From assembly GCF_024139115.2 (NCBI RefSeq), contig NW_026942547.1, positions 79,023-143,022 of the forward strand: a DNA stretch of 64,000 bases, read 5' to 3'. The position numbers and the translations under genes were made by a program. Shown here in pieces: positions 5,003 to 64,000 of this stretch. Numbering within the stretch: the stretch's first letter is position 1; every line of letters starts with the position of its first letter. The notes beneath the pieces were generated by a model. That model searched no databases, was not told the DNA's origin, and saw only the letters and a program-made list of their open reading frames with translations. The DNA is from Armigeres subalbatus (Eukaryota > Arthropoda > Insecta > Diptera > Culicidae).

Positions 5003-5120
5003 ATATGGAGCTTAACATACAGAAACTTTTCTCCGAAGTCACTTAGCCTTTAAAATCATCTTTTCAAGGCCAAAACATTTTCGATCACGAATTCCTGGGT
5101 TAGAAAACACTGTGGATCGG

Positions 5121-5329
5121 TTGAATGCCGAGGTCAGTCCAGAGATTCTGTATAGAGTAAAGCGAAGGTACGACGATCCGACAACGGTACTTCAACGCGT
5201 CGTGATCTACGTAGTCCGCAACGGTGGATCTGGCCTACACGGATGGTAAGTTCCCCGTCACGCGTCACGCCGTTGGTGATCGGCGGCGTGGATCAGCGTG
5301 AACTATTTTCAAGCGCCAATTCGTAGAAA
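5121..5329. other. CpG-richer lead-in to the minisatellite
   Basis: This stretch is richer in CpG than its surroundings and contains GATCGGCGGCGTGGATCAGC near 5277. A comparable GGCGGC-containing lead-in accompanies other minisatellite blocks near 15100 and 18710. No gene is seen. Confidence 0.35.
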
Positions 5330-6343
5330 TTTCTTCAGAAGTTCCTCCAGGAATTCCTCCACAAGTTTCTCTAAGAATTCCTCCAGAAGTTTCTCAAGGA
5401 ATTCCTCCGGAAGTTTCTCCAGGAATTCCTCCGGTTGTTCCTCCAGGAATTCCTACGGAAGTTTCTCCAGGAATTCCTGCGGAAGTTTCTCCAGGAATTC
5501 CTGCGGAAGTTTCTCCAGGAATTCCTGCGTAAGTTCGTCCAAGAATTCCTGTGGAAGTTCCTCCAAGAATTCCTGCGGAAATTCTTCCAAGAATTCCTCC
5601 GGAATTTCCTCCAAAAATTCCTGCAGAAGTTCCTCCAGGAATTTCTGCGGAAGTTCCACCAGAAATTCCTGGGGAAGTTCCTCCAGAAATTCGTCCGCAA
5701 GTTCTTCCAGAAATTCGTCCGGAAGTTCCTTCAGAAATTCATCCAAAAGTTCCTTCAGAAATTCATCCGGAAGTTCCTTCAGAAATTCCTCCGGAAGTTC
5801 CTCCAGAAATTCGTCCGGAAGTTCCTCCAGAAAATCCCCCGGAGTTCCTCCAGGAATTCCTGCGGAAGTTCCTCCAGGAATTCCTGCGGAAGTTCCTCCA
5901 GGAAATCCTGCGGAAGTTCCTCCAGGAATTCCTGCAGAAGTTCTTCCAGAAATTAGTCCGGAAGTGCCTACAGAAATTCGTCCTAAAGTTCGTTCAGAAA
6001 TTCTTCCGGAAGTTCCTCCAGGAATTCCTCCGGAAGTTCCTCCAGGAATTCCTCCGGAAGTTCCTCCAGGAGTTCCTGCGGAAGTTCCTCCCGAAATTCC
6101 TGCGAAAGGTCCTCCAGGAATTTCGGCGGAAGTTCATCCAGGAATTCCCCCGGAAGTTCCTCCAGAACTTTCTCCAGGATTTCCTACGGAAGATCTTGCA
6201 GAAATTCCTGCAAAAGTTCTTGCAAGAATTCCTCCGGAAGTTCCTCCAGGATTTCTTCGGAAAGCTTCTTCAAGAATTCTTTCAAAAGTACTGGCAAATT
6301 CTTCAAAAATTTGGCTAAGAATTCTTCCGGAAGTTTCTCCAGA
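5330..6343 (+). repeat. 24-bp minisatellite, first part
   Basis: About 42 degenerate copies of a 24-bp unit of the form GGAAGTTCCTCCAGGAATTC plus four bases. The unit length is a multiple of three, so all reading frames stay open over long distances. The apparent products are 8-residue repeats (SSRNSCGS, PPGIPAEV, FLQEFLRK) in three overlapping plus-strand frames and also on the minus strand. That is the signature of a tandem repeat rather than a gene. Confidence 0.9.
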
Positions 6344-6357
6344 GATTAGTTTGGAAG
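6344..6357 (+). repeat. Target-site duplication, left copy
   Basis: GATTAGTTTGGAAG, repeated exactly at 6806-6819 on the other side of the SINE. Confidence 0.9.
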
Positions 6358-6805
6358 GGGGGGTCCCGTAGCGTAGTTGGCTACACGTTCGCCTTTCAAG
6401 CGAATGGTCATGGGTTCGATTCCCAGCCCCTCCACCAAAACCCTCGTCAGTTGCCGGATGCGCAGCCTATGCGGTGGCGTATTGGGGTGCACGCCTCACC
6501 GTCACGGCTGCCTGATGACGACTGACAACTTGTTCTTCTCGGAGGCATTCCTCCAACGTTACCCGGATAAATGGCAACCGGACAATGCAACGATCATTGG
6601 ATACACGACATGGACGAAACGAACACAATGGACTCACGACGAGATGGACCAGCAACGACAACAACAATGAATAATGGAAAAATCTAAAAATAGATTCTGT
6701 GTGGATTCTGGCTGCAGAATACCACAGTAGATATCGGCACAGTAGCGGTTAAGTAACACAGAGTGCCTATCAAATAAATAAAGGAATAAAAAAAAAAAAA
6801 AAAAA
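6358..6805 (+). mobile_element. tRNA-derived SINE, Feilai-like
   Basis: The 5' part is a tRNA-like pol III promoter. An A-box-like TAGCGTAGTTGG lies at 6372 and a B box GGTTCGATTCC at 6414, and a short anticodon-arm-like stretch sits between them. The element runs 448 bp to a poly-A tail (about 6788-6805) and is bounded by an exact 14-bp target duplication. Layout and promoter sequence resemble the Feilai SINEs known from Aedes; that family name is from memory and unverified. The insertion interrupts the 24-bp minisatellite, so it is younger than the array. Confidence 0.85.
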
Positions 6806-6819
6806 GATTAGTTTGGAAG
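6806..6819 (+). repeat. Target-site duplication, right copy
   Basis: Exact repeat of GATTAGTTTGGAAG directly after the poly-A tail of the SINE. Confidence 0.9.
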
Positions 6820-7745
6820 TTCCTCCAAACTATTCCTCAGGAAGCTTCTCCAGTAATTCCTCGGAAAGATTCTATAAGAATTCTTCCAGAAGTTCTAATA
6901 AATGCTATCCAAATTCCTTTTGCACTTCCTCAGGAAGTTTATTCAAAAATTTCTTCGGAAATTCCTCCAGGAATTCTTCCGAATGCTGGTCCAGGAGTTA
7001 GTTTGAAAGTTCCTCCAGGAATTTCTTGCAGAAATTCCGCCGGAAGTTCTTGCAGGAATTCTTCCGAAAGTTCTGGCAGGGATTCCTCCGGAAATTCTTC
7101 CAGGAATTCCTCAGGTAGTTCCTCCGAGAATTCCTCAGGAAGTTCCTCCAAGATTTTCTTCAGAAGTTCTAGCAAATTCCATCCAAATTCCTCCAGCTCG
7201 CCCAGAAGTTAGTTTGAAAGTTCCTCCAGGAATTCTGCGGGAAGCTTCTCCAGGTATTTTTCGAAAAGTTTCTCCACGAATTCTTCCCGGAATTCCTAAC
7301 TAATTATATCCAATTTCTCCAGCATTTCATTTGGAAGTTTCTTCAAAAATTTCTACGGATGTTCCTCAAGGAGTTTCTCTGGAAGATCCTCTATAAATTC
7401 CTCCGGAAGTTCCTCCATGAATTTTCTCCATGAATTTCTGCTGGAGTTCCTCCAAAAAATGCTTTCGAAATTTCTTCCAGAAAATTCTTCATGATTTCCT
7501 TTAGAAGTTCTTGCAAATATTTTTCGGAAGTTTTTCCAGGAATTCATCCATAGGCTCCACCAAAAATTAATTGGGAAACTAAGTTCTTCGGGAAGCTTCT
7601 CCAGGAATTCCACGGAAAGTTTCTCCAAGAATTATTCCCTGAATTCCTACAGAAGTTCCATCAGAATTCTTTAAGATTTTTTTTAGGAATTTCTTCAGAA
7701 GCTCCTCAGGAAGTTCTTCCAGCAGTTCCTCAGGTAATTCAGGTA
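6820..7745 (+). repeat. 24-bp minisatellite, second part
   Basis: Continuation of the array interrupted by the SINE, in the same orientation and more diverged, with (G)AAGTTCCTCCAGGAATTC units still recognisable to about 7740. Plus and minus frames are both open because of the 24-bp period. Confidence 0.85.
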
Positions 7746-7898
7746 ATTTCATGCAGACAATGTCATTGACTGCGGGACTTCGACGTTCGTTAGGAAATAT
7801 ATTCATTCAAATCCAGTTCCCTTCATGCTATTTCGAGAAAAACTTCAAAAATGGAACCGCTTCTAAGAAAATATGAATATGAAAATACCGAACCGATG
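7746..7898. other. Unassigned sequence
   Basis: Short non-repetitive interval between the minisatellite and the next TIR element; nothing recognised. Confidence 0.3.
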
Positions 7899-8397
7899 CA
7901 GGTAACCGTAGTGCAGGTAGCACCAATAGTGGAGGTAGTGGGGTTTTAATGAGATTTACCATATTCATAGACTTTACGATGGTTTCAGTTGATACGTCGT
8001 GCTTTAAATATCCTTTTAAATGCAACTTACCTTAAGATTTCGCTTGAAAAACTATTGAAAACAATGATTTTCCTTAACAAAATTGACTCCCTTGCACCCA
8101 TAGTGGTGCAACTGTACCAATAGTGGCGAGTCTCATAAGAAACCAATGGATAGCACCACTATAGGAACCAAAATTAATTTTTACCGCCACTAAAGGAACA
8201 GTGTACCCATAGTGGTGCAAGCAATATTTGGTAATTGTTGATGTTAAATGACATCCATCTCATTTTTGTTAGCAAATTTATTAGTTTATCTATTGACTAA
8301 GATAATAAAGTAGTAAATTTTCCATAATTATAAATTTTTAAAAAATATTTTCTTTTGTGGATCTACTAATATCTTCACTATTGGTACCGTTACCCTA
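7899..8397. mobile_element. ~0.5-kb TIR element with CCAATAGTGG-type motifs
   Basis: The right end, read in reverse, is TAGGGTAACGGTACCAATAG; the left end is the similar AGGTAACCGTAG and, downstream, CACCAATAGTGG. Inside, the motif GCACC(A/C)ATAGTGG and its reverse complement recur about seven times (7920, 8095, 8110, 8150, 8207 and others). A related block occurs at 23433-23547. No coding capacity remains. Confidence 0.5.
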
Positions 8398-8871
8398 TTT
8401 CAGCTAATTAGCTGATACAGTTTTTACATTTTCACGGTTATATTTTTCACAGCTTTATGTGAATTAATAAAAAAAAATCACCAAATTCAGTAATTTTATT
8501 TACAGTTTCCAAGTAACTTGCAAAAAATTACCGAAACATCCGTTATTTTTCAGAGCACAGATCTTTTCAGTAAAATGAATTACCGAATTTTGAGTCTCTG
8601 TTTAAGTGTGTTAAGTTGAAATACTCTCGGAAATTCGCACGAAAACTTTTACAGACATTCCTTCTGAAAGTCCCCCAATTTTTCCCTGGAACTGCACCCA
8701 AATTTCGCCCCTGGAATTTTTTCTCAAAATTCTCCTGCCTCTCCTCCTAGAGTTTCTCCAGAAGTTTCTGCGTTTTACTTCAAGAACTCTTCTATTATTA
8801 TTATTATAGATTATTAAATTCACAGATTATAGATTCACCAAAAAAAATCTCTGAAAATTGCTTTGAAAATT
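8398..8871. other. AT-rich decayed repeat and purine/pyrimidine-rich stretch
   Basis: No gene is seen. 8440-8600 carries iterated TTACCGAA and CAGTAA motifs comparable to 2400-2830. 8620-8790 looks like a remnant of the TTCC/GGAA minisatellite. Confidence 0.35.
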
Positions 8872-21000: not shown

Positions 21001-21624
21001 AAAAAATCTATAATGGGCAACCCATGAGCACCACAATGATGACCTTATGTACTATTCCAAACAAATTTGTAGAACAACATTTTTGCCTTTCTCGTATACA
21101 AAGTATTCGTAAAGGTTATATGTTCGCTTCAAAAACGAACTTTTTATAGGGGGCCCGGAGACCCATAGTGTTATATACCGATCGACTCAGCTCGACGAAT
21201 TGAAGTGATGTCTGTGTCTGTATGTGTGTACGCAAACTAAACTCACTCATTTTTCAGGTACTTATCTTAACCGATTTGCTCACAAAAAGTTGCATTCGGC
21301 GCGGATCCCTGTCGCATTGTTTCGTATTGAAAATTGACCCAATCGGACTATGAGCTTTGAAGTTATCGCCAAAATGTATTTTTTACAAGAAAAATTCTCA
21401 CTCACTTTTTAGGCACTTACTTTTAGATGATTTGCTCGCAACATTTGCTTTCATTTGACGTACAGATCGGACTATGGGTTTCGAAGTTATGGCCAAAATT
21501 CATTTTTTACATTAGAAACACGTACAAAATTCTCACTCTTTTTTCATCCACTTATCTTTAATTGATTTGCTCGCAACGGAATCCTGTCCCATTATTTCAT
21601 ATTGAAAATTGGTCGAATCGAACT

Positions 21625-21636
21625 ATGGGATTCTAT
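21625..21636 (+). repeat. Target-site duplication of the SINE, left copy
   Basis: ATGGGATTCTAT, repeated exactly at 21914-21925. Confidence 0.85.
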
Positions 21637-21913
21637 CTTCTTCTTCTTCTTCTTATTGGCATTACATCCCCACAATGGGACAGAGCCGCCTCGCAGCTTA
21701 GTGTTCATTAAGCACTTCCACAGTTATTAACTGCGAGGTTTCTAAGCCAGGTTACCATTTTTGCATTCGTATATCATGAGGCTAACACGATGATACTTTT
21801 ATGCCCAGGGAAGTCGAGACAATTTCCAATCCGAAAATTATCTAGACCGGCATCGGGAATCGAACCCAGCCACCCTCAGCATGGTCTTGCTTTGTAGCCG
21901 CGCGTCTTACCTC
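21637..21913 (-). mobile_element. tRNA-derived SINE, family B, copy 1
   Basis: Read on the minus strand, it starts GAGGTAAGACGCGCGGCTAC, has the B box GGTTCGATTCC and ends in (AAG)n. It lacks the first ~20 bases of the family head and is bounded by an exact 12-bp target duplication. Four further copies are at 25901, 29045, 46273 and 48353. Confidence 0.85.
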
Positions 21914-22110
21914 ATGGGATTCTATATTATGGTATGGCCAAAACACATTTTTTACAAGAAAAAAATTCACTAATTTTTTAGGCACTTACCCTCAGCCGAT
22001 TTGCTCGCAACAAGTTGCATACGACGCAGAATCGTGTCCCATTGTTTCCTATTGAAAATTGGCCGGATCGGACTATGGGCTCAGAAGTTATGGCCAAAAA
22101 ATTATTTGCC

Positions 22111-23547: not shown

Positions 23548-24309
23548 ATGATTTCAAGTAACAATCAAGGATTTTGATGCGATTATGGCACGCTTTGAAT
23601 AAAATAGAGATTATAAGCTTTCGGATGCACTCTCAAGGTGCGGGTCGTCCGATGAGGAAGAGGATTAGTCATGGCCTGCTGTTGGCTGATCAAATGTCAT
23701 GTAATCGTTCGTTATACGGAAGATGTTTGCATCTGTCAACTGAACACACACAGCAGTTGAACTGTGTTATCTTACAATTATAATAGAGCAAAAATCTATG
23801 AATCACTATTGAAAATTTGTAGATTCCGTCCGTTGAGAAATTATTGAGTTATTCGCTTCCTAAACCTAATTTTTTTTGTGATAGTTTCGTTTTCCAAAAT
23901 TCTGAAATGGACGCAATCCTACGGCAATAATATTTGTTTTAAACAATAATTCTGAAACGCTGAATGGCTGATCCGTCAAATTATTATTTGCGAGAAAGAA
24001 TCGCCTTCTGCTTCGAATGCAGTTTGTTAAGTAATTTTTTACGTGTTTTTCGCATAAAACATGGTTTTTTAACCATAATTTTTGATCTCATAATCCTATC
24101 TGGCAAATTTTCAATAGCAAACAATGGGACAGGATTTCCCGTCAATGAATCGCCTGCTTTGAGCGTGCGACACACTAGGAGTTAACTTTCTTATATCAGT
24201 ATAGCGAAAAGCATCTCTAAATAAGGCACCGGACGGTAGAAGGTAGCGGACACCATCCTTCACAACCGGCACCAAATAATTTTTCATGAAAAGTTCCTAG
24301 TTTTGAGAA
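23548..24309. other. Unassigned
   Basis: No gene. Open frames of about 70 codons occur on both strands at 23964-24185, which argues against either being real. Confidence 0.3.
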
Positions 24310-24420
24310 AAACCGCGTTAGATGTCTTTTGCCATCGGTTAACTCATGCTGGCTATTTGCGCCTGGATGTGGACGCGGCGGGTATAAAATCAGCCACTGC
24401 CAATAATTCATTGGATGCGA
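24310..24420 (+). repeat. Dispersed repeat, inverted copy of 8872-8975
   Basis: Shares the blocks AACTCATGCTGGCTATTTGC and AAAATCAGCCACTGCCAATA with the reverse complement of the earlier copy. Confidence 0.6.
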
Positions 24421-24464
24421 GTAAAACGGAAAACGTTAAGTTCCCAAACGTGTGTTTGCAAATT

Positions 24465-24560
24465 GTGTACACATACACACACATACATACTCACATACAG
24501 ACATCACCTCAGTTTGTCGAGCTGGTATATAACACTATGGGTCTCCGGGTATTCTATCAA
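24465..24560 (-). repeat. Fragment of the 21070-22110 repeat
   Basis: A CA-rich run (24470-24500) leads into TTTGTCGAGCTGGTATATAA and CACTATGGGTCTCCGGG. This is the reverse complement of the region around 21150-21230. Confidence 0.65.
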
Positions 24561-25318
24561 ATATTATAATATTATAGCCTTTCGGTACAACTTGACATTT
24601 TACTCGAAGTCGAAAACCATCGCAATTCAACGAACTTTCACATATCTGGATCGTCATCGACATCACAAGCCGAAACCAGATAAAAACAAAGCATCAATCC
24701 GGCGCTCTTCCGGAGCGCCTTCGACATTCAAGTCAAAACCGATGAAAACCCAAAACAATCTATCAATTGACTAGAATATAATTTCTTCTGTCTGTATTGT
24801 GGACGAATACCATCGCTTTGGACATATCCATATATTTCGGAAAGTCTCAAATATCTTGTACACGTGACACTGAATGTTTTCAAATTGATCAACTCTATGT
24901 GTCCTGGTTACGAATGAAAAACGCTAAAATAATTCCCCAAGCTCTCATTTTACCACCTATACGACCGTCTGTCATGTACGATGATGACCTGCATAAATTT
25001 CCGCATCCAACCAACTCTTTTGTTAAAATTGAATTTATCCTAAAAATAACTAAATTGTCGTCAATTTGGTTTAAAACGCATTTTTTAAGATTCGCCACAC
25101 TTATCAAAGTTCCAACATCAGCTGCGAATTGACGATAATGGTTTAATCGCCTACGCCGCAACGACGTCAGCTCTGTTCTACGTTAGATCATCTGATATTC
25201 TAACGCAGCTGTCAGCTGTTTCATTCCGGTTTTGACCTACGGTATCCTTCCAAAGAAGAGACTACGACCAACGGACGTTTTACATACGAAACATACGAGA
25301 TAATAGGTTTGAGCTGAT
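24561..25318. other. Unassigned
   Basis: A 111-codon plus frame (24797-25132) and an 88-codon minus frame (24895-25161) overlap. Neither shows a known motif and I do not call a gene. Confidence 0.25.
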
Positions 25319-25900: not shown

Positions 25901-26177
25901 GAGGCCCTCCTTAGCCTAGCGGTAAGATGCGCGGCTACAAAGCAAGACCATGCTGAGGGTGGCTGGGTTCGATTTCCGGTGCCGGTGGAAATTGTATCGA
26001 CTTCCCTGGGCATAAAACTATCATCGTGTTAGCCTCATGATAAACGAATTCGGTAATGGTAACTTGGCTTAGAAACCTCGCAGTTAAAAACTGTGGTAGG
26101 GCTGAATAAACACTAAGCAGCGAGGCAGCAATGTCCTAGTAGGGGATGGAATGCCAATAAGAAGAACAAGAAGATAT
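25901..26177 (+). mobile_element. tRNA-derived SINE, family B, copy 2
   Basis: Full-length sense copy: head GAGGCCCTCCTTAGCC, GCGGTAAGATGCGCGGCTAC, B box GGTTCGATTTCC, body with CTCGCAGTTAAAAACTGTGG, and an AAGAAGAACAAGAAG tail. It is 277 bp. A 9-bp duplication, GTGACTAAT, flanks it. It lacks ~20 bases after the B box that copies 1 and 5 retain. Confidence 0.85.
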
Positions 26178-28203: not shown

Positions 28204-28814
28204 ATATCTTGGCTGTGCATATGCACAGCACATGTTTCGAAATGGACAAATTGATATGAAATTTGCGAAAAAGAATCCACGTGTCTTGGAGGGACTCGAA
28301 CCCTCAACCTCCTACTCTCTAGATATGCAATTAATTGTAATCAAGTGTCGGTCTTTCACCGTCATTAGTCGTCTGAGTGCACGCGACCGCTTACGTAAGG
28401 CAATCAAACTCATCAAATGCTTTAGCCAAGCAAGCCTTTGGCACAGCAGAGTGCGATTGATTCGCATTCTATACCATCCCGCCCAACCCGTTGTTGGGGG
28501 GGCATGGAGTGCGATCCTCTCGTTTAATAAACAATGTGCACTCGCTTGACTGTGGATATACAACAGTAAAGCACATGTGGAGATTGGACAAATCAAGCAT
28601 CCGAAAGATATTCAATTTGCAAAAAAGAGAGCTAACCGCGGTGGAGGTTGGTACTCGGATTCTGCTAACTTTTCCGCAAACGTGACCTTTAAGTGGTATT
28701 GTTGTGTAGGGGTTATCACGCCTATCTAGAGAGTAGGATGTTGGGGGTTCGAGTCCCTCCAAGACAAGTGGATTCTGTTTCGCAAATTTCATATTATATC
28801 TACAGCCAAGATAT
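28204..28814. mobile_element. Foldback or inverted SINE pair with tRNA-like arms
   Basis: The left arm is the reverse complement of the right arm over about 100 bp: both hold ATATCTTGGCTGT, AAATTTCATAT and GGTTCGAGTCCCTCC. In the right arm a tRNA-like segment at 28706-28766 shows an A-box-like AGGGGTTATCACG, an anticodon-arm-like stretch and a T-arm GGGGGTTCGAGTCCCTC. The left copy stops before the A box. Long open frames across it on both strands are repeat translations. Confidence 0.65.
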
Positions 28815-28950: not shown

Positions 28951-29044
28951 AACCTCCAACAAGTCAATTGGATTCACAGTTGACAAATCACACTTGTCCA
29001 AGAATTTGATATAATAGGCAACGTGATCGATCGACTGTTTCGCC

Positions 29045-29298
29045 TTTCTTCTTCTTCGTCTTTGGTATCACATCCCCCACTGGACCATTGCCGCCTCGCC
29101 ACTTTGCGTATATTAAGTATTTCCTCAGTTAACAAATGCGTGGTTTCTAAGCCTATTTACAATGTTTACATTCGAGTAGTCGAAAAAAGATAGTCCTGGG
29201 CCGGACCAGAAATCGAACCCAGTTTCTTTCACTAAGGTAGGTCTTTCGTTTTGTAGCCGTGCATCTTACCGCTACATAAGCTAAGAGAGGCTCCGACT
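29045..29298 (-). mobile_element. tRNA-derived SINE, family B, copy 3 (diverged)
   Basis: On the minus strand it reads CTCTTAGCTTATGTAGCGGT, then AAGATGCACGGCTACAAAAC, a B-box-like GGTTCGATTTCT and an (AAG)n tail. It is much more diverged than the other copies. Confidence 0.7.
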
Positions 29299-42736: not shown

Positions 42737-43293
42737 CCAAAGTTACCCCAAATTGGAAAATAAAAAAACTCGACAAAAAGCATTTTTAAAACAAGTTTTA
42801 AAACCATTTTTAAAACAAGTTTAAAACAACATTTTTAAAACAAACAACAAAATACTAAATGATTGAACGCCAATTACTAAATAATCTATAACATCCTTTC
42901 AAGAACAACAGCCTTATACGTTCTATATGTAGCAGTACTTGTTTTAAAAACATGAAAAAAGTTTTAATTTTACTTACGGGGGAAATATTTACAAAACAAT
43001 TAAAAAATGATCAATGTTACCCCGGATTACGGTAATCTAAGCGAAAATTTATTTTCAGTCCTCTCTATAAGTTAGTTTGAGTATATTTGAGCCTTTGTGC
43101 TGTACACAAGTGATTGTATTCGAATTCAAGAAGAGTTAATCAATTATTTCATGACAAATGGCAACTAAAAAGATCTCCAGAAGGTTTCAAAAACACAAAC
43201 CGCCCTGTAAAACTGTCAATCCAAAAAATAAGTTATTCCATAATGATAATTTATCTATAGGATCCATGCCAGAAAAAAACGCTTGAACAAAAC
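42737..43293. other. Unassigned AT-rich sequence
   Basis: Contains iterated ATTTTTAAAACAA words near 42780-42850. No gene. Confidence 0.3.
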
Positions 43294-43479
43294 TACACTC
43301 AACCCTCTTTTTACGGCAGTTTTCTTACGTCACTTCGTTTTACGGCCTTCTTTTTACGGCACGTGACGTAAAAAAAATTTTATTGACATCCAAAAGTAAG
43401 CCTATAAGAAGGCACTCTTAGAAACCCAAAGAACAAAGTAGATGCTTTGTATATTCATCATTGGCCTTCAACTATTGTT

Positions 43480-45600
43480 CCATTCCAGGTCATTCAAGAA
43501 ATTCCTGGAGTCTACACGCGTAGCCAAGGACCTAAGGTCTACAAGCGTAACGAAAGAGCTGTTATCTCTTTTTAAAAATGGTTCATGCCCTACTTGATAT
43601 ATTAAACCAAATACCGTTCCAGGTCATCCGAGAATTCCCTGGAGTATCAAATCCAGGCATATGAGTTGTTCTAAGATCTCCAAATTGCCCTTGAGTTTGA
43701 ATCAAAGGGTCTGCCGAATCAACCAAGGCTTCCATGATGCACCCAGCCACGGTAACAACCCAATTATGTCCTTCGAGTATTTGTCGTTCACTCGCGTCTC
43801 AAATGTAGACATGTGAGTTGTTCTAAGACCTCCAAATTATCCTGGGGTTTGTATCAAATGGTCTGCCGAATCAACCAAAGCTTTCATGATGTCCCCAGCC
43901 GCGGTATCAACCCAATTATGTCCTCCGAGTATTTTTCTCTCACTTGTTGCGTCTCAAATCCTGACATATGAAATGTAGTAAGATCTCCAAATCGTCCTGG
44001 AGTTTGAACCAAATGGTCTGCCGAATCAACCAAGGCTTCCATGATGTCCCGAGCCGCAGTAACAACCCAATTATGTCCTCCGAGTATTTGTCGTTCGCTC
44101 GCGTCTCAAATGTAGGCATATGAGTTGTTCTAAGATCTCCAAATTATCCTGGAGTTTGAATCAAATGGTCTGCCGAATCAACCACTGCTTTCATGATGTC
44201 TTCAGCCGTGGTATCAACCTAAGTATGCCCTCCGAGTATTTTTCCTTCACTTGCGTCTCAAATCCAGACATATGAGGTGTAGTAAGATCTCCAAATCGTC
44301 CTGGAATTTGAATCAAATGGTCTGTCGAATCAACCAAGGCTTCCATGATGTCCCCAGCCGCGGTACCAACCCAAATATGTCCTCCGAGTATTTGTCGTTC
44401 ACTCGCGTCTCAAATGTAGGCATATAAGTTGTTCTAAGACCTCCAAATTATCCTGAAGTTCGAATCAAATGGTCTGCCGAATCAACCAAGGCTCTCATGA
44501 TGTCCCTAGCCGCGGAATCAACCCAATTATGTCCTCCGAGTATTTGTTGTTCACTCGCGTCTCAAATGTAGGCATATGAGTTGTTTTAAGACCTCCAAAT
44601 TATCCTGGAGTTTGAATCAAATGGTCTACCGAATCTACTAAAGCTTCCATGATGTCTCCAGCCGCGGTATCAACCCAATTTTATTCTCCGAGTATTTGTC
44701 GTTCGCTCGGGTCTCAAATTTAGGCATATGAATTGTTCTAAGACCTCCAAATTATCCTGGAGTTTGTATCAAATGGTCTGCCGAATCAACCAAGGCTTTC
44801 ATGATGTCCCTAGCCGCGGTAACAACCCAATTATGTCCTCCGAGTATTTGGCGTTCACTCGCGTTTCAAATCCAAGTAATATCTCCAAATCGTCCTGAAA
44901 TTTGAATCAAATAGTCTACCGAATCAACCAAGGCTTCCATGATATCACCAGCCGCGGTAACAACCCAATTATGTCTTCCGAGTATTTGTCGTTCACTCGC
45001 GTCTCAAATGTAGGCGTGCGAGTTGTTCTAAGACCTCCAAATTATCCTGAAATTTGAATCAAATGGTCTGCAGAATCAACCAAGGCTCTCATGATATCCC
45101 TAGCCACGGAATCAACCCAATTATGTCCTCCGAGTGTTTTTCTTTCACTTGCGTCTGAAATCCTGACATATGAAATGTAGTAAGATCTCCAAATCGTCCT
45201 GGAGTTTGAATCAAATGGTCTACCGAATCAACCAAGGCTTCCATGATGTCCCCAGCCGCGGTAACAACCCAATTATGTCCTCCGAGTATTTGTTGTTCAC
45301 TCGCGTCTCAAATGTAGGATATGAGTTGTTCTAAGATCTTCAAATTATTCTGAAGTTTGTATCAAATAGTCTACCGGATCAACCAAGGCTTCCATGATGT
45401 CCCCAGCCGCGGTATCAACCCAATTTTGTTCTCCGAGTATTTTTCGTTCGCTTGCGTCTCAAATTTAGGCATATGAGTTGTTTGAGGATCTCCAAATTGT
45501 CCTGAAGTTTGAATCAAATAGTCTCCATGAAGTCCCCAGCTGCGGTATCAATCCATTTATGTCCTTCGAGTATTTTTCTTTCACTTGCGTCTCAAATCCA
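43480..45600 (+). repeat. 152-bp tandem array, left half
   Basis: The motif CCGAATCAACCAAGGCTTCC, or a close variant, occurs at 43714, 43866, 44021, 44173, 44325, 44477, 44629, 44781, 44929, 45071, 45223 and 45374. Most spacings are exactly 152 bp. Units also carry CTCCAAATTATCCTGGAGTT, CAGCCGCGGTA, ATGTCCTCCGAGTATT and TCACTCGCGTCTCAAAT. Confidence 0.95.
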
Positions 45601-45900
45601 GGCATATACAAAACATGTGCATGGGCTCTGAGGACGCGGACTAGAGGACTGAGGACTATTTGTCCACACTCCAGGTCAATTTGGAAGGCCTAGAATATCG
45701 CATCTCATGTACAAAAAATGTGCTTGGAGGACGCGACATAGGGCAGTTTGGAGAACCTGAATCATGTCATCTTCATGAATAAATTAAGTGCATATACTCG
45801 GATGACATAATTGGGAACCGAGGTGAGCCAGCCTTGGGCTGAAAGTCTCGCTTGTAAAGATAAAAAAAATTGGGAACACATCTTCATTGGGGACATAGTT
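45601..45900. repeat. Switch region between inverted arrays
   Basis: The orientation of the 152-bp unit reverses within this interval. It holds shortened unit pieces such as AGGACGCGGACTAGAGGACT and a micro-retroposon at 45819-45867. Confidence 0.7.
45819..45867 (+). mobile_element. 49-bp micro-retroposon, copy B
   Basis: CGAGGTGAGCCAGCCTTGGG and CTGAAAGTCTCGCTTGTAAA, then a short A-rich tail, flanked on both sides by AATTGGGAAC (45809-45818 and 45868-45877). Same sequence as copy A at 34149. Confidence 0.85.
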
Positions 45901-47900
45901 CCAGGCGAGGTTGATTTGGTAGACTATTTGATTCCTACTCTAGGGCAATTTGGAGGATCGCAAGTAAACTATAAATACTAGGAGAACACAATTGGGGGTT
46001 GTTAAAAGGACATCATGCAAGTCGTTGTTCATTTGGTAAGAAATCTAAATACACTTAGTGGACATAATGGCGTTGATATCGTGGCTGGGGGCATGATGCA
46101 AGCCTTATTCGATTCAGTAGACCATTTGATTCATTCTCTAGAACAATTTGGAGATCTTACAATATCTTAAATGGCAGAATTTGAGTCGCAATTCGCAAGC
46201 TATCCAAATTCCAGGGCAACTTTGAGATCTTACAGCACCTCATATGTCTTGATTTGAGACAAGTGAAAGACATGGACCCTCCTTAGCCGTGCGGTAAGAC
46301 GTAAGAAATTGTCTCGACTTCCCTGGGCATAAAGGTATCATCGTGTTAGCCTCATGATATAGGAATGCAAAATGGTAACTTGGCTTAGAAACCTCGCAGT
46401 TAATAACTGTGGAAGAGCTTAATGAACACTAAGCTGCGAGGCGGCTCTGTCCCAGTGTGGGTATGTAATGCCAGTAAGAAGAAGAAGAAGAAAGACAAAT
46501 ACTCGGGGATTATAAATGAGTTGATACCGCGACATCATGGAAGCCTTGGTTGATTTGGTAGACCACTAGATTCAAACTTCAGGACAATTTGGAGATCTTA
46601 CAACATCTTTCATGCTAAAATTTGATTCAAACTCCAGGATAATTTGGAGATCTTAAAGCATCTCATATGCCTGGATTTGAGACGTAAGTGAAAGGCAAAT
46701 AATCGGAGGACATAATTGAATTGATACCACGGCTTAGGACATCATGAAGGCTTTGGTTGATTTGATAGACCATTTGATTTAAACTCTAGGACAATTTGGA
46801 GAACTTACAACATCTCATATGCCTGTATTTGAGACGTTAGTGAAAGACTAATACTCAGAAGAGAAAATTAGGTTGACACCGCGGCTGGGGACATCAGGGA
46901 AGCCTTGGTTGATTCGGTAGACCATTTGATTCAAACTCCAGGACAATATGGAGACCTTAAAACATCTCATATACCTGGACTTGGGACTCAAGTGAAAGAC
47001 AAATACTCGGAGGGCATGATTTTGATGATACGGTGTTGAGGACATTATGGAAGCCTTGGTTGATTCATTAGACCATTTGATTCAAACTCCAGGCAAATTT
47101 GGAAGTCTTATAAAACCTCATATGTCTTGTTTTGAAACGCAAGTGAAAGACAAACACTCGGAGAACATAATTGAGTTGATACCGCGACTGAAGACATCAT
47201 GGAAGCCTTGGTTGATTCATTAGATCATTTGATTCAAACTCCAAGACAATTTGGAGATCTTACAACACCTCATATGTCTTGTTTTGAGACGCAAATGAAA
47301 GGCAAATTTTCAGAGAACATATTTGAGTTGATACCACGGCTTATGACATCATGAAGGCTTTGGTTGATTCGATAGACCATTTGATTTCAACTCCAGGACA
47401 ATTTGGAGAACTTACAACATCTGATATGCCTGTATTTGAGACGCAAGTGAAAGACCAATACTCAGAAGACAAATTGGGTTGACACCGCGGCTGGGGACAT
47501 CAAGCCTTGGTTGATTCGGTAGATTTTTTGATTCAAACTTCAGGACAATTTGGAGATCTTAAAACCTCTCATATACCTGAACTTGAGACGCAAGTAAAAG
47601 ACAAATACTCGGAGGGCATGATTGTGATGATACCGCGGCTGAGGACATCATGCAAGCCTCAGTAGCTCCGGTAGACCATTTGATTCAAACTCCAGAACAA
47701 TTTGGAGATCTTTCAACTTTATACATGGAAGAATTGAAGACGCAGGTGTAAGACAAATAATCGAAGGACAAAATTGAGTTGACACCGAGGCTGGGAACAT
47801 CGTGGAAGCCTTGGTTGATTCGGTAGAGCATTTGATTCGAACTCCAGGACAATTTGGAGATCGTATAACATCTCATATGCCTGAATTTGAAGAGATCTTA
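45901..47900 (-). repeat. 152-bp tandem array, right half (inverted)
   Basis: Reverse-complement units: TTGGTTGATTCGGTAGACCA-type starts occur near 46548, 46754, 46906, 47058, 47209, 47360, 47508, 47661 and 47812, mostly 148-153 bp apart. One interval is longer because of a partial duplication near 46615. Confidence 0.95.
46273..46489 (+). mobile_element. tRNA-derived SINE, family B, copy 4 (B box deleted)
   Basis: Head CCTCCTTAGCCGTGCGGTAA and body are intact, but the sequence jumps from GTAAGACGT to AAGAAATTGTCTCGAC, losing the B box and ~70 bases. An (AAG)n tail follows. GAAAGACA flanks both sides (46265-46272 and 46490-46497). It sits inside a 152-bp unit. Confidence 0.8.
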
Positions 47901-48051
47901 CAATACCTCATGATACATAAGTGAATGTATTTAAAAGTATCCAACAATCAATAAATTAAGTGTTATACTAGAAACTTGAGCAAAAATTATTTTTACGTCT
48001 CATTCGGTTTACGTCCCCCCAATAAATGACGTAAAAAGAGGGTTGAGTGTA

Positions 48052-48352: not shown

Positions 48353-48574
48353 GCCCTCCTTAGCCATGCGGTAAGACGCACGGCTACAAAGCAAGACCAT
48401 GCTGAGGGTGGCTGGGTTCCATTCCAATGTGCCGGTCTAGGCAATTTTCGGATTGGAAATTGTCTCGACTTCCCTGGGCATAAAAGTATCATCGTGTTAG
48501 CCTCATGATATACGAATGCAAAAATGGTAACCTGGCTTAGAAACCTCGCAGTTAATAACTGTGGAAGTGCTTAA
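48353..48574 (+). mobile_element. tRNA-derived SINE, family B, copy 5 (3'-truncated)
   Basis: Starts GGGCCCTCCTTAGCCATGCG, keeps a mutated B box (GGTTCCATTCC) and stops after AACTGTGGAAGTGCTTAA, before the usual tail. Confidence 0.8.
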
Positions 48575-50219: not shown

Positions 50220-51635
50220 CATTTCGGGCTCAAAAATTCTCCTTGAAATCCTTCTAGAAGCTCCCCTGGGAACTTCTAAATTCCTCCGGAAAGTTATCCA
50301 CAAATTCCTCTGAAAATCGTTCGAAAATCCTTCTCATGTAATTGTAATTCCCCCCCCCCCCCCACTATTTTTTTTAGGAAATTCACGAGGAAATTCCTTG
50401 AAGATATCTTTTCTTCTCTCCAAGATTTACTTCTAGATATTTCTTCGGCTATTCTCTCTTCAGGAAGAATCCGGCATTTCCTTCCAGCCACCAGCCAATA
50501 GCTCACGCAACAATACATACGGAATTTCTTCCCAAAATTCTACCAGAAGTTTATTTAAAAATTTCTGACTGAAATCCTCTGATTTAGCTCCATAATTTCA
50601 CTTGTAAATCTATAAGAAATTCCTTCGGAAATTATTCTAGGAACTTCTCCGGGCATTACTCTCGGAACTCTTCCTTTAATTCCTACGATTACTTCCAGGA
50701 AATTTTCAGGAATACTTTCCAAACATTCAATAGCGAAATCATCTAGCATTCCAATCTGGAATTCTTTTCACAATTACTTCAGAATATCCTTCAAGAAATC
50801 CTCTAGAAATATCTTCATGAATTTCTCCTGGAATTCGTCCAAGTATTTCCCCAGAAATTCTTACAGGTTTTTTTTCTGGAGTTTCTTCAGGTACTTCTCC
50901 AGGAATTCCTTCAGGAATTTCTCCGGGAGATTTTCCACGGAAGTGTACTAGAATTCCTTCCGGACTTCACTCGGAATTTACTCGGATATCTGCCAAGAGT
51001 TCTTCCAGAAATTTCTTCGAAACAATCCGCAGAGATTTTCTTCAGCAATTAATCTGGGAATACTTTCAGGATTTAATCTGGGAATTTCTGCATTAATTCC
51101 TACTGGTATCAGATATTTTTTTGGAAATTCCTTTAGGAACTTCTCTAAGAATTATTTCAGGACAGGAATTGCACGGGAAATGGGATTTTGGAAGTTCCTT
51201 CAGAAATGTTTTTTCTTTTCCTCTAGGGTATTCCACCGGATGTTCCTCTGAAGTTCCACCAGTAGTTCCTTCGGGAATTCAATCAGGCTCTCTTCCAGGA
51301 ATTCATTTAGCATTTCTTCAGGCATTTATCTACAAATTCCTCTAGAAATTCTTCGGAGAATTTCTCTGGGAGTTCTTACGGGAATTCCTCCGGGAGGTTC
51401 TTTTAAGAATTCTTCCAGGAGTTCCTCCTGGAATTCTTACGGAAGTTCCTTTGGGAGTTCATCCTAAAATTCCTATGAGAGTTCCTCCAGGATTTCCTAC
51501 GGAAATTCTTCCTGTAGTTCTTCAATAAATTCCTCCAAAAGTTCCACCGGCAGTTCCTCCGAGAATTCCTCTGATAATTTCTCTGGAAATTCCTATAGAT
51601 AAATCCCCCGGGAGTTCCTCCGGAAATTACTCTGG
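50220..51635 (+). repeat. 24-bp minisatellite inside the element, forward half
   Basis: Units such as GGGAGTTCCTCCGGAAATTC and GGAATTCCTCCGGGAGGTTC, with a 24-bp period where well preserved (51360-51600). A C14-type run lies at 50349. Confidence 0.8.
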
Positions 51636-51639
51636 GAGT

Positions 51640-52940
51640 TCCTTTTCAGAGCAACACCCGGAGAAACTGCAGGTGAAACTCCCGGAGGGATTCTCGTAGA
51701 AACTGCTGGTGGATCACCCGAAGGAATTCCCGAAGGAACTGCCGGAGGAGCTCCCGTAAGATTTCCTGTAAGAACTCCCGGAGGAATTTCAGGAGGAACT
51801 CCTAGAAGAATTCCTATTAGACCTCCTGGATGAGCTCCCAGCGAAACTATCGGAAGAACTTCGGGAGGAATTTCCAGCTTAATTTCTGAAGAAAGCCTAA
51901 ATGATTTCCTGAAAAAAAGCCTGAATAATTCCCTGGAATAGCTTCTGGTGGAACTCCCGAGGGAATTTCCGGAGAAACTCCCGGATGAGTTGCTGGTGGA
52001 ATTCCCGGAGGAACTCTCGAAGGAATTTTCTGGAAGAATTTCTGAAGAATCTTCCGGGAGAATTTTCAAAGGAACCCCGGGGAAACTACCAGAAGCATTC
52101 TCGGAAACAAGAGAATTCATCTTATAGACAAATGTCGTCTAGCTGAAACCTTTATTGGGGTTTGTAGCTGGACCATCATCATCATCAGAGGACCTCCCGG
52201 AGAATTCCCTGAGGAGCTCGCAGAGAAATTTTCGGAGAAGCTTCTGGAGGAAAATCTATATAATTTCCTGAAGAAGCCTAAATAAATTCCAATTCTGCCG
52301 AAATTCCCGGAAGAATTTTCAGAGGAACTGCCGATAGAACTACCGGAATAATTCTCGAAGGAAATCCTAGAGAAATTCTTGGTGGAAATGCCGGTGGAAC
52401 TCCTGGAAGAATTCCAGGAGGAATTTTCGGGGAAACTCCTGGAGGATCTCCCAGTGGAAATCTTGAAGTTTCCACTGGAATTCTTTCAGGATTTCATTGC
52501 GAATGCCTCCGAAAATTCCATTGTTGATTCCATTTTAGGTATAATTGCTGGATAAATTTCCGGTGGAATTCCTAGAGAAAGTCTTTGAAATTTTCATAAG
52601 AAATTAGACGAAACAATTCACGGAAAATTTTATGGAATTTACAAGAAATTGAATATTTTCGTGAATTTCTTAGGAATGTTTTCTGCGGAATTTCAACGGA
52701 ATAATCTTATTCTAAAAGTTATGGGAAACAGCACGAAATTATTTAAATTATTGCAGGAAATTCTGCAGAACTTATAAAGAAGTTCGTGAAGATTTTCTTG
52801 GATTAAATAATGGTGGAATTTTCGGATCAATTCCGGCAAAATTTATGGTGGAATTCCTGAAGACACTGCCGAAGAAGTTGCTGGAGGCATTCCTTAAGAA
52901 TCCCTGATAGAATTTCGGATAGAATGCCAGAGCAATTGTC
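51640..52940 (-). repeat. 24-bp minisatellite inside the element, reversed half
   Basis: Units now read GGAGGAACTCCCGGAGGAAT, the reverse complement of the forward half. A 175-codon minus-strand frame (51593-52120) therefore encodes the same 8-residue repeats (for example PPGVSPAV) that plus frames give at 5.3 kb. An unrelated ~80-bp insert with an ATC repeat is at 52105-52190. Confidence 0.8.
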
Positions 52941-56599: not shown

Positions 56600-58460
56600 A
56601 ATCTGAAGCAAAATAAAACAAACTCGCTGGTTTCCCCAGCAGTGTCCATTCATGTGCTTGGGTGCTTTCTTAGATATTGAAGGTGCTTTCGACAACGTGT
56701 CTTTCGATGCAATATTGGAAGCCGCACGTTGTCATGGGCTACCTAATATAATAAACAAATGGATTCATCCAGATGCTTAAAAACCGACATCTCTACTCGA
56801 CATTACGTCAAGGCGATTAGGAAATTAAGTATGTGGGTCTAATTTTGGATTCAAAGCTTTCCTAGACTCCAAACATTGAGTTCAGAATCAAAAAAGGCGT
56901 GTATGGCTTTCGGCCAATGCCGACGAACCTAAACTTGGGGTCTTAAACCCAAATATTTCAAATGGATGTACACAACAGTTGTACGACCATTTTTGCCTTG
57001 TGTGGTGGCAAAAGGGGGAAGTGAGGACAATTCAGTCTAAATTAGGCCATCTTCAAATGATGTGCCTAATGGCAATGACTGGTGCGTTCTTTTCAACTCC
57101 CATGGCTGCTCTCGAAGTTCTCTTCGACGTGGGCCCACTACACATACATCTCAAACAAGAAGCATTTTCTTTTACTTACCGACTCTGGGTACTCGGTTTT
57201 ATGAGAATCCTGTAAACCGCAGCTGTACACACACTTCGTTGTTACCGCTTGTGGTTAATTGGGACAAAATTTTCCTTGCTCCAAGTGATCTCACACAAGT
57301 TAGTAGTTTTCCTTATAGGATATTTCAACACAATTCCTCTCGCGGGATGAGTGGACATCTTTCTATTTGGATGTCGGACAGCATTATTTGTTACACTGAC
57401 GGTAGGTAGGTAGAGCAGATGCAGGTGTCTATTCGCGTGAGCTGAGCTTGGAACAGTCACACTCATTGGGTAAACACTGCACTGTCTTTCAAGCGGAAAT
57501 ATTTGCCATCATGTGTTGAGTGCAATTTTCACTGCAGCAACGCATTATGGGCAAAGTAATATACTTCTGTTCAGATAGCCAAGCAGCTATTAAAGCTCTC
57601 GCCTCGGCCAACTCAAGGACGAAGTCAATAATCGCATGTCGAACTCAAATTGAGGAACTGAATTCAGTTAATACTTTACACCTTATATGGGTACCTTTTC
57701 ATTCTTCCATAGCTGGGAACGAATTGGCTGATGAGTTAGCTCGTAATGGAGCATCACATGATTTTATTGGTCCTGATCCAGCTATTCCAATATCCAAGTG
57801 TTGGGTGAAGCTTTTGATTAACTCTTGGGCTGTCACTCAGCACAAATGGCATTGGAGTAGTCTGGATTCATGTCATCAAACAAAATTGTACATCCGGGAG
57901 CCATCTCCGGTAGTAGCGAACTATTTAGCTAATCTGTCTAAACAGAATTGCAGTGTCTTAGTCAAGGCATTGACAGGTCACTGCCGACTGAACTATCACA
58001 TGGCAAATATTCAACGCGTTGAATCATCTGTTTGTGATAGTTGTGAATCCGATTTTGGAACTTCTTATCATCTGATATGTAACTGCCCAGTCTATGCGCA
58101 ATTGTGCTTCCAAATATTAAGTAAACACTTACTTAGTGAAATTGACTTCTGAAACCTGAACCTTCAGAGTATTTTGTTGTGCATAATCCGTTGTGGTAAG
58201 GAACTATAAGCTCTTGTACGCTTATGCGATGTATGCCCTCTTCAAGGGCTCTTTTCCAAACTTTCCCTTTATTCCCCATCCAAATTCCTTTCCTTTTTGT
58301 TCACTTCCTTTTCCGTCAGGTGTGTGATGAAAAAGGCTGTGAAGGCGATGGCACAAATCTCCCAAATTCAGGTGAACGTGTCCCTGGAGCCGACGTTCTG
58401 ATACCTGATGCCTGATCCATTCATGTTTTTCAAATCTCCAATTCAATAAAATAATAATGT
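56600..58460 (+). pseudogene. Dead R1/LOA-like non-LTR retrotransposon (3' half)
   Basis: Starts with a reverse-transcriptase fragment at ~56655: AFLDIEGAFDNVSFDAILEA, followed by GLPNIINKW. A frameshift occurs near 56770. A deletion then joins LYSTLRQGD to KYVGLILDSKLS, so the catalytic YxDD core is gone. 56979-57215 encodes the post-RT connection (VWWQKGE, PMAALEVLF). An RNase H domain follows, then a Cys/His cluster. The 3' UTR runs to an AATAAAATAATAATG end near 58458. RNase H plus the DIEGAFDN motif points to the R1/LOA/I group. It cannot be active. Confidence 0.85.
57391..58152 (+). pseudogene. RNase H and C-terminal Cys/His region of the LINE
   Basis: All four RNase H motifs can be read: CYTDG (57388-57402), FQAEIFAIM (57490), FCSDSQAAIKAL (57570) and AGNELADELA (57711). 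The first two lie before a GTAG duplication frameshift and a TGA near 57518; from there 210 codons are open to 58152. The C-terminus has CDSCES-DFG-TSYHLICNCP, the Cys/His cluster usual after RNase H in these elements. Within the retrotransposon, RNase H would remove RNA from the RNA-DNA hybrid. Here it is a remnant. Confidence 0.8.
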
Positions 58461-62963: not shown

Positions 62964-63695
62964 TATGAGTGCTGAAGATAATTATCTAGTATGTAGGAAG
63001 GTATACAAAATGGAATTGTTTATGACAATTTTAAATTCTGATTGACGGGTGATGCGCGTTCACAATGCTATGAGCTGCTGACTTCGGAGGGACGTGGGAG
63101 GACTCTGCTGGCATTTCATGCGACTACGTGGATGACGACGACGGCTTCGGAACAGGATGAATGCGTTTGTTGTCTCCAGGCAAAACTCCTTCAATTCGGA
63201 GTGATGGGGTCGACATGAATTGAGCGATGACAACGCAAATTGCATAAATCCAGGTTGGGGCAACAGATGATAACCGAAGGATTTCTCTCTCTATAATGGC
63301 GAGTCGTGAATGGTTTGAAGACTTATATCATGTAATGACCCTACATGCATTGTGATTCAACAATGTATTATCGGACGTCGCCGTCTCATCAGTCATCGAA
63401 GAAAATAGATAATGGGTAGAAATAACTGAGATAAGTCATCGTTATTGTTCGGGGAATTCTATTCAGAAACATAGTCTTGGTCAGAGAAGTAATTCGAAGC
63501 AATTGCTACTATGGTGAGAGATTATTTTGCAATGAAACGATATTTTAAATTGAAATTGATTAAAAAATTGGTACATGCTGTGGAGCAATACACAAAACTT
63601 ACATAGGAGTAGCTAGTCCCAATCTAGCAAGAACGCCCAGATGGAATGATGTATTTTTAAGCCAATAGTTGTAGCACGTTGTATCTATTCGGAAA
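62964..63695. other. Unassigned
   Basis: A minus frame of 67 codons at 63060-63263 and plus-strand coding-like composition at 63080-63210 are present, but no motif decides. No gene is called. Confidence 0.25.
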
Positions 63696-64000
63696 CATCT
63701 TTTCAAGAGGCTCTGGAAACTCTGCTTGTAAAAAGGATCTGGAAGCCTCACTCGCCAAGAGGGGCTCTCAAACCTCTTTCAATAGGGCTTCCGAAGGCTT
63801 CCTTTCAAGCAGGCTCGGAAGCCTTCTTTCAAAGAGGTGCCTCAAGCCTCCTTTCAAGAAGGCTCGAAGCCTCCTTTCAAAAGGCTCAGGAAGCCTCATT
63901 TCAAGAGGAAGCCAGGAAGCCTCCTTTCAAGAGGCCAGAAGCCTCCTTTCAAGAGGCTCGGAAGTCCTCCCTTTCAAGAGGCCTCGGAAGTCTCCTTTAA
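63696..64000 (+). repeat. 23-25-bp minisatellite continuing past the window end
   Basis: About 12 units of GGCTCGGAAGCCTCCTTTCA plus AGA, best preserved from 63830 on. The array is cut by the window edge. Confidence 0.85.

Follow-up and report, generated by a model that had tools for sequence, protein, structure and literature searches.

The segment at positions 43294-48051 of the window (the whole stretch of 64,000 nucleotides of Armigeres subalbatus DNA that was analyzed) is a complete transposon-like element. It is one of a family of TA-flanked cut-and-paste DNA transposons in which no transposase is visible, and its arrays of ~152-bp units are part of this family. Taken as a whole, the evidence makes it very probable that the family is non-autonomous, inserts at TA, and has opposed 152-bp arrays that are copied with each transposition.

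Structure of the Window Copy

The two ends of the element carry an exact 22-bp inverted match, TACACTCAACCCTCTTTTTACG, at 43294-43315 (plus) and 48030-48051 (minus). When the inner 20-mer was searched with up to three mismatches, it was found at only two places in the 64 kb, both of them ends of this segment (0.01 expected), which bears out the 22 identical inverted bases and TA edges of the first-pass annotation. Boundary sequences of the family have the form CACTCAACCC...TTTTTACG. The features of the window copy are as follows:

43294..43315, plus strand: left terminal inverted repeat (TA target duplication + 20 bp), an exact inverted match to the right end
43294..43393, plus strand: left terminal zone with a clustered motif, present at four sites in this copy, with overlap between the first site and the inverted repeat
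43394..43634, plus strand: left flank domain, some of it belonging to another, diverged repeat in plus sense (the B repeat, spaced at ~135 bp)
43635..45607, plus strand: left array, 13 units of ~152 bp, plus sense
45608..46047, no strand: decayed middle, with weak minus-sense unit pieces at 45653-46038
46048..47931, minus strand: right array, 10 well-kept minus-sense units and partial ones, broken by a SINE
46273..46489, plus strand: SINE-like insertion (217 bp) inside the right array, between direct duplicates of 8 bp
47932..48029, minus strand: right flank; three motif sites fall within the final 90 bp of the element, and one of them overlaps with the inverted repeat
48030..48051, minus strand: right terminal inverted repeat (20 bp + TA target duplication)

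Both of the opposed arrays that had been claimed were recovered. On the left, 13 plus-sense matches span 43648-45591 with a mean pairwise identity of 86% (43635-45607 when delimited by BLAST), and the units mostly alternate between two unit types. On the right, minus-sense units are strong over 46048-47889, with weaker pieces from 45653; there are 10 good units, at 79% identity, and a partial unit was recognized by eye at 47890-47931. Left and right units of this copy are on average 80% identical. Outside the arrays, the best alignment of the left 341 bp with the right 120 bp is the terminal 28 bp, and the better-kept sister copies have a second short piece common to both ends, GTGACGTAAAAAGAATTT, seen by eye. 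Beyond these short pieces, no flank mirroring was seen in the best alignment, the only one tested. The earlier description of the whole element as one 4.7-kb imperfect palindrome goes too far, the flanks being mirrored in short pieces only.

Unit arrays begin some 340-560 bp in from the left end. The B repeat was delimited in copy L016, whose middle domain contains it again, and shows a weak likeness to the 152-bp unit, with 20 of 300 shuffles scoring as high. Other copies have a unique middle domain of ~530 bp that was not found in the window copy. The SINE-like insert is bounded by GAAAGACA at 46265-46272 and 46490-46497, and the window copy is an older family member into which the SINE came later. 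Pieces related to this insert also lie at 21638-21826, 25988-26174, 29044-29173, and 48456-48574 of the window. A search of the window for RNA families returned two tRNA matches only.

A Dispersed Family With Two Distinct Ends

The genome search that had been proposed for the terminal repeat revealed many dispersed copies: in the 1.34-Gb genome to which the window belongs, the 22-mer end has 543 exact matches and the reversed control none, which places the family at a copy number of at least a few hundred. The 100 end places listed, which all lie on C1, include 21 convergent end pairs less than 15 kb apart (1578-11528 bp), and exactly one right-type end is present in 20 of these, none in one, and two in none. 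Complete elements that were read measure 1.6 to 6.2 kb and have the same ends, with unread end pairs reaching 11.5 kb. Of 20 copies picked by their left end, 8 could be followed from end to end in the stretch read and have differing flanks, and in the remaining 12 the right end was not seen within that stretch. The left 340 bp are 96-100% identical in eight sampled copies (L014, L016, L017, L022, L024, L025, L026, and L028), which indicates that part of the family spread recently. Neither the 20-mer end nor a 28-base unit pattern was found in viral contigs (0 and 0).

Taken alone, the window could not exclude that two unrelated MITEs happen to surround a satellite, or that the palindrome is an artefact of assembly. 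Seven end pairs, selected blind to their contents and all among the nine shortest of the 21 listed, bear on the first of these, which the first-pass annotation had itself named as a refuting outcome: arrays were enclosed in 7/7, with both opposed arms in 6/7, and the ends are thus not those of two MITEs flanking an unrelated satellite. At many places the same arrays lie between two distinct end types, the left one ACGGCA or ACGGCAG-like and the right one ACGTCA, and both explanations are vanishingly unlikely.

Target Site and Superfamily

TA is present at both edges in seven of eight sampled complete copies, and L014 has TT at its left edge. Empty sites with a single TA, another proposed check, were observed for one sister copy: nine copies were tested, and L017 alone gave matching paralogous sites, at L017:7091-7205 and at 21104-21219 and 24499-24561 of the window. 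In 16 complete elements, no stretch free of stops exceeds 152 aa, the longest seen, and no Pfam transposase was detected in the 5 stretches scanned of 45 that are stop-free over at least 90 aa, although a gene split by introns could escape such a scan. The scanned stretches also gave one weak, below-cut-off Pfam match, to GTP cyclohydrolase. None of 29 listed DDE_3 matches lies near an end, each being separated from any exact end by over 59 kb; this comparison covers the DDE_3 family on C1 within the range of the listed ends, with 150 of 1164 candidates scored. With terminal repeats on many dispersed copies and no Pfam transposase in the stretches scanned, the earlier view of a transposon without its own transposase is upheld. 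Because no transposase was found, we can only infer membership in Tc1/mariner, from the TA duplication and the empty sites of one copy.

End Motifs and the Role of the Arrays

A motif chosen by eye from the ends, TTTACG[GT]C / G[AC]CGTAAA, occurs at both ends of 16/16 complete elements, three to five times within the leftmost 100 bp, and is the likely transposase-binding motif, confined to the ends. Its presence inside the arrays was considered and rejected, the interiors of all 16 elements being without sites. This bears on the idea that the arrays multiply transposase-binding sites, so that elements with longer arms would move better. In Galileo, a P superfamily element that likewise has internally repetitive inverted arms, tandem repeats within the ends hold extra transposase-binding sites (PMC3688188), and the same role has been proposed for the repeats of the Drosophila transposon Tetris (PMC4079207). 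The mosquito arrays differ from those of Galileo in that they lack the end motif, with the reservation that the true binding site may differ from a motif picked by eye, and the two terminal zones are unlike the unit (scores equalled or exceeded in 87 and 237 of 300 shuffles). A role of this kind is very doubtful, and as far as the sequence allows one to judge, the arrays appear to be passive cargo.

Origin of the Inverted Doubling

The nearest relative of a unit comes from the same arm for 298 of 301 units, a pattern that holds with same-copy units left out of the comparison, and arm-to-arm likeness is 0.799 within a copy and 0.799 between different copies. A recent inversion in the window copy was rejected, as the identity table, examined by eye, has no run of mirrored left-right partners and the arms form separate lineages across copies. 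The first-pass annotation was correct that the element contains opposed arrays; the inversion that it placed in this element is, judging from the unit comparison, old, ancestral to the family, and common to its copies. What varies among copies is array length. Full-length units per sampled locus range from 0 to 30 on the left and from 0 to 16 on the right (some loci being truncated). Against the preferred reading, the outermost units on the right could be matched between copies in just 3 of the 6 pairs that were compared.

Arrays Outside the Element

It had also been suggested that the element may seed satellites elsewhere, and arrays lacking its ends had been named as a refuting outcome. Both points were addressed on a sample of 23 array places from a unit search that lists only the best-matching arrays, in an assembly from which heterochromatin may be absent. 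An element end or the left domain was nearby at 22 of the 23. On C1, within the range of the listed ends, 11/11 array places are at most 3.2 kb from an exact end, compared with a mean of 0.056 and a maximum of 2/11 for random places within 8 kb of one; on C2/C3, 11 of 12 array places read have the left domain. The one exception, L048, has neither end nor left domain within the stretch read, and unit matches are abundant, with 2209 first-look candidates. Tetris gave rise to longer satellite arrays in Drosophila virilis (PMC4079207), whereas no array free of the mosquito element was shown among the 23 places. Seeding is so far not supported, and it is improbable that a free satellite was captured and that the element still exchanges with, or seeds, arrays elsewhere.

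Proposed Mechanism and Possible Hairpin RNAs

The preferred reading is that of a non-autonomous cut-and-paste element that inserts at TA and would use a transposase supplied in trans, probably through binding to the TTTACG[GT]C motifs in its outer 90-100 bp. The unit comparison shows that the inverted doubling, presumably a single event, preceded the spread of the family and that every transposition took the doubled arrays along. Arrays may gain and lose units internally by unequal exchange or slippage after insertion, and perhaps also in gap repair after excision.

A different emphasis would be that the opposed arrays are a functional source of hairpin RNA, in which read-through transcripts would form long dsRNA and be cut by Dicer-2 into siRNAs that might dampen the activity of the transposon or of other targets. 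A satellite piRNA, tapiR1, is known from mosquitoes. The predicted hairpin is strong: the fold of a 4758-nt transcript reaches -2362 kcal/mol (plus) and -2488 kcal/mol (minus), computed without a shuffle control, with 1279 and 1277 predicted pairs spanning more than 1 kb and longest helices of 33 and 49 bp, respectively; the longest exact arm-to-arm match is 47 bp. By mapping, MITEs in Aedes aegypti account for 4.26% of endo-siRNAs, against 0.26% of piRNAs (PMC3259105). However, the arms mismatch by about 20%, and their equal likeness within and between copies argues against selection for complementarity. Such a function is conceivable but unlikely. More doubtful still is an extended version, in which hundreds of dispersed copies would act as a length-adjustable source feeding one self-limiting siRNA pool of 152-bp periodicity, with array growth and shrinkage tuning the dose.

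Relation to Known Systems and Significance

Inverted arms that are internally repetitive are also found in FB of Drosophila melanogaster, which belongs to another superfamily. Foldback elements are recognized by long inverted arms of tandem repeats, which the mosquito element has, and by long arms that reach the termini, which it does not. The closest known system is the Drosophila foldback transposon Tetris (Drosophila virilis/americana), described as apparently non-autonomous, with no transposase found, and as having opposed arms with tandem ~220-bp repeats in variable number and a short-ended relative, DAIBAM (PMC4079207). Tetris differs in its 8-10-bp target duplications and its placement with Mutator, compared with TA and a 152-bp unit here, and its arms are long terminal inverted repeats that include the outer domain (PMC4079207), whereas the mosquito ends share only 22-28 bp and a further short piece. 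TCAST4, TCAST7, and TCAST8 of Tribolium castaneum are inverted satellite-like copies in, or resembling, mariner-like non-autonomous elements, which are single or dimeric rather than opposed tandem arrays (PMC5844308). Cg_HINE and non-autonomous Helentrons of Crassostrea gigas are mobile and disperse satellite-like arrays, but they belong to the Helentron superfamily and have central repeats, and the abstract makes no mention of opposed arrays between TA-flanked inverted ends (PMC7492417). No earlier description of the present family was found by title or start of abstract in the open-licence PMC literature, the scope of the search (Repbase and TEfam lie outside it), and a 12-base end piece used as a text query returned four papers, all with unrelated titles.

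Since its body consists of opposed arrays of variable length, the element carries ready-made satellite DNA, and possibly a long RNA hairpin, around the genome. One object thereby joins the two main classes of repeats: the transposon delivers inverted satellite arrays, already formed, to hundreds of sites. Palindromic arrays of this kind are likely trouble spots for assembly and rearrangement. With one ancestral inversion and varying array length, the sampled copies provide a natural experiment on the expansion and shrinkage of tandem arrays, and also on whether mosquitoes tolerate, transcribe, or silence long inverted repeats.

Structure of the element

The transposon-like element comprises 4758 bp, within which Tandem Repeats Finder delimits two 152-bp arrays:

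43294-48051, transposon-like element, 4758 bp
43647-45524, 152-bp array (left, plus-sense units)
46620-47890, 152-bp array (right, minus-sense units)

At both edges TA is followed by an identical 20 bases in inverted orientation. The inverted 22-base ends with TA described in the first-pass annotation are thus exact, and the 20-mer, with up to 3 mismatches allowed, is found at two places in the 64-kb window, both of them element edges (0.01 expected). The opposed arrays of ~152-bp units described there were likewise recovered, with a unit profile search giving 13 plus-sense matches spanning 43648-45591 and exclusively minus-sense matches from 45653 on; elsewhere in the 64-kb window the unit had no match at E values up to 1. 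Mean unit identity is 86% in the left array, 79% in the right (10 units) and 80% between left and right. Two types cover most left units, in a weakly supported tree, and right-unit pairs 3/7 and 4/8 are each 91% identical, a pattern suggestive of a four-unit higher order. Inside the right array is a SINE-like piece with GAAAGACA on either side, and the element therefore predates that insertion.

The element had also been claimed to be palindromic from end to end, and this did not hold: when the left 341 bp were aligned with the right 120 bp, the terminal 28 bp gave the top match. By eye, GTGACGTAAAAAGAATTT is present at both ends in sister copies, and no mirroring of the flanks is visible beyond these two features. 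In L016, a better-kept sister copy, the left flank measures ~550 bp and a middle domain of ~530 bp (711 bp in the excerpt used for searching) precedes decayed units. A second, diverged repeat of ~135-bp spacing, the B repeat, occupies both the left flank (462-1017) and the middle domain (1590-2117) of L016 in equal orientation. Between the window copy and L016 the left flanks align over 361 bp, and the L016-type middle domain is represented in the window copy by its decayed-unit part alone.

Arrays and Ends Belong Together

The genome searched amounts to 1.34 Gb, with contigs C1, C2 and C3 of 319, 465 and 430 Mb and the window on C814. A search with the element's first 207 bp brought up 963 initial candidates, and all 40 of those scored matched at 92-100%. 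Exact copies of the 22-mer end number 543 (269 on one strand and 274 on the other), of which 240 are right-type ends (ACGTCA), and the reversed control has 0 occurrences. Among the 100 of these 543 ends that were listed, all on C1, there are 21 convergent pairs less than 15 kb apart, 1578 to 11528 bp long, and 3 non-convergent neighbours within the same distance. Exactly one right-type end is present in 20 of the 21 pairs, none in the pair at 203.5 Mb, and two in no pair.

It is conceivable that such ends belong to two separate MITEs around an unrelated satellite. To avoid selection by internal sequence, seven of the 21 convergent pairs were taken from the end list, namely the three shortest (L030-L032) and four of 3171-4439 bp (L033-L036), all among the nine shortest and all with TA at the edges by construction, TA being in the search pattern. 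Every one encloses the 152-bp unit, and six carry plus-sense units on the left and minus-sense units on the right (L031 has the right array only), which makes the two-MITE reading very unlikely.

The same element would also be called into question by arrays that lack its ends. A two-unit genome search gave 2209 candidates, of which 40 were scored, and places were taken from the matches listed among 258. On C1, all 11 such places within range of the listed ends lie at most 3.2 kb from an exact end; random places gave a mean of 0.056 and a maximum of 2 of 11 within 8 kb. On C2 and C3 the matches listed gave 25 places, five already known from the left-end search, and 1.6 kb of the outer left side was read at 12 of the remaining 20. 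The left end is present at 10 of these 12, being exact at eight, with one mismatch at L043 and four at L040. At L045 the left domain is interrupted and no end lies within 1.6 kb, and L048 is the one place among 23 with neither end nor left domain in 1.6 kb. Taken together, 22 of the 23 sampled places go with the element, in a sample that consists of the best-matching arrays only and has no bearing on unassembled heterochromatin. L048:700-1573 is a decayed array with gaps.

Sister Copies and Insertion at TA

Sister copies were sampled as the 20 best matches to the first 207 bp after the window copy, and at most 10 kb of each was read. In eight, the stretch read includes both ends (2 mismatches or fewer), separated by 3516 to 6175 bp; flanking sequence differs among these copies, and TA stands at both edges in seven, the exception being L014 with TT on the left. 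The right end is absent from the stretch read in the other 12. The sequence of L021 stops at a contig end before any right end, and L026 has a GAGCAT microsatellite in place of the right 22 bp. The unit arrays of L009 lie at C3:311640048, just past the stretch read, so this element was probably split by an insertion. About 450-550 bp of the window copy's left flank (about 42743-43293) is common to L009 (86%) and L010 (95%), and in all three the element sits at the same position relative to it; judging from this sequence, these copies are probably duplicates of one insertion. In L023, a degenerate right end that differs at 4 positions is followed 44 bp further on by full opposed arrays (4004-8736), an arrangement that suggests nested or tandem copies.

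For nine complete copies, including that of the window, a script fused the two flanks around one TA, and the product was compared with all sequences collected for the analysis. Matches crossing the joint were found for L017 only, whose element sits within a local repeat. Three related repeats are uninterrupted at the joint and carry one TA there, namely L017:7091-7205, window 21219-21104 (minus strand) and window 24499-24561. For L017 this shows insertion at TA with TA duplication. The proposed search for empty single-TA sites thus succeeded for one of the nine copies. A dispersed repeat at window 21104-22107 and 24058-24561 holds the empty counterpart of the L017 site.

Evolution of the Arrays

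Units were compared across 21 loci using the 301 of 395 unit matches that span 136 or more unit positions, leaving out shorter matches and locus L015 (2 matches). The nearest unit comes from the same arm in 298 of 301 cases, both overall and with the same copy excluded, and the consensus sequences of the two arms disagree at 5 of 150 positions. These comparisons indicate that the inverted doubling is older than the spread of the family and that the two arms exchange little or no sequence. Mean arm-to-arm identity is 0.799 both within and between copies, so resemblance between the two arms of a copy is not maintained.

Full-length units number 0 to 30 on the left and 0 to 16 on the right per locus, some loci being truncated. 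In unit-by-unit comparison of six pairs of copies, the outermost right units correspond at 0.95-0.96 in three (L016-L022, window-L027 and window-L012) and match more weakly or elsewhere in the other three, and inner units are in shuffled order. The left array of L026 (1951-6627) has about 30 units whose profile scores form a regular repeating pattern, as if a multi-unit block had been amplified recently. These observations fit internal gain and loss, and the arrays may change in this way by unequal exchange or slippage.

Mobilization and RNA

Inspection of the ends by eye singled out the motif TTTACG[GT]C, counted on either strand. Every one of the 16 complete elements has 3-5 sites within its left 100 bp, 2-3 within its right 90 bp and none in its interior, and the density over the whole window, element included, is 0.125 per kb. 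This is probably a transposase-binding motif. Repeats are reported as extra transposase-binding sites in Galileo (PMC3688188) and proposed as such in Tetris (PMC4079207), whereas the present arrays are unlikely to serve in this way, since the motif is absent from the interiors and no likeness of either end to the 152-bp unit was found.

The longest stop-free stretch in the 16 complete elements is 152 aa, and no transposase family match was obtained in the five scanned of 45 stretches of at least 90 aa. A genome search for the Tc1-type DDE_3 domain, with 150 of 1164 candidates scored, gave 29 C1 matches in the range of the listed ends, all at least 59 kb from any exact end. From these matches and candidates, the genome offers many possible transposase donors.

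Predicted RNA folding of the whole element gave -2362 (plus) and -2488 kcal/mol (minus), as values without a shuffle control, with 77-78% of bases paired and nearly 1280 pairs whose partners lie over 1 kb apart. The longest predicted helices are 33 and 49 bp, and exact identity between the arms extends to at most 47 bp. MITEs of Aedes aegypti are described as attracting relatively more endo-siRNAs than piRNAs (PMC3259105).

Other Features of the Window

57520-58149, RNase H-like retroelement reading frame; best named relative from the mosquito Uranotaenia lowii, 56%
6357-6437 and 28694-28768, tRNA-like sequences (Glu, Ser), each also recovered with the Rfam model; either genes or heads of SINEs
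5338-7740, 50808-52067 and 63689-63998, long minisatellites, periods of 12 and 24 bp and multiples of these

Place Among Known Systems

A literature search, with curated repeat libraries outside its reach, found no earlier description of the family. Tetris, as described in PMC4079207, is the closest known system. Unlike those of foldback elements and Tetris, the arms of the present element stop short of its ends, and its target duplication is TA, as opposed to the 8-10 bp given for Tetris in that account. Functionally, the family resembles a foldback transposon whose arms are made of satellite.
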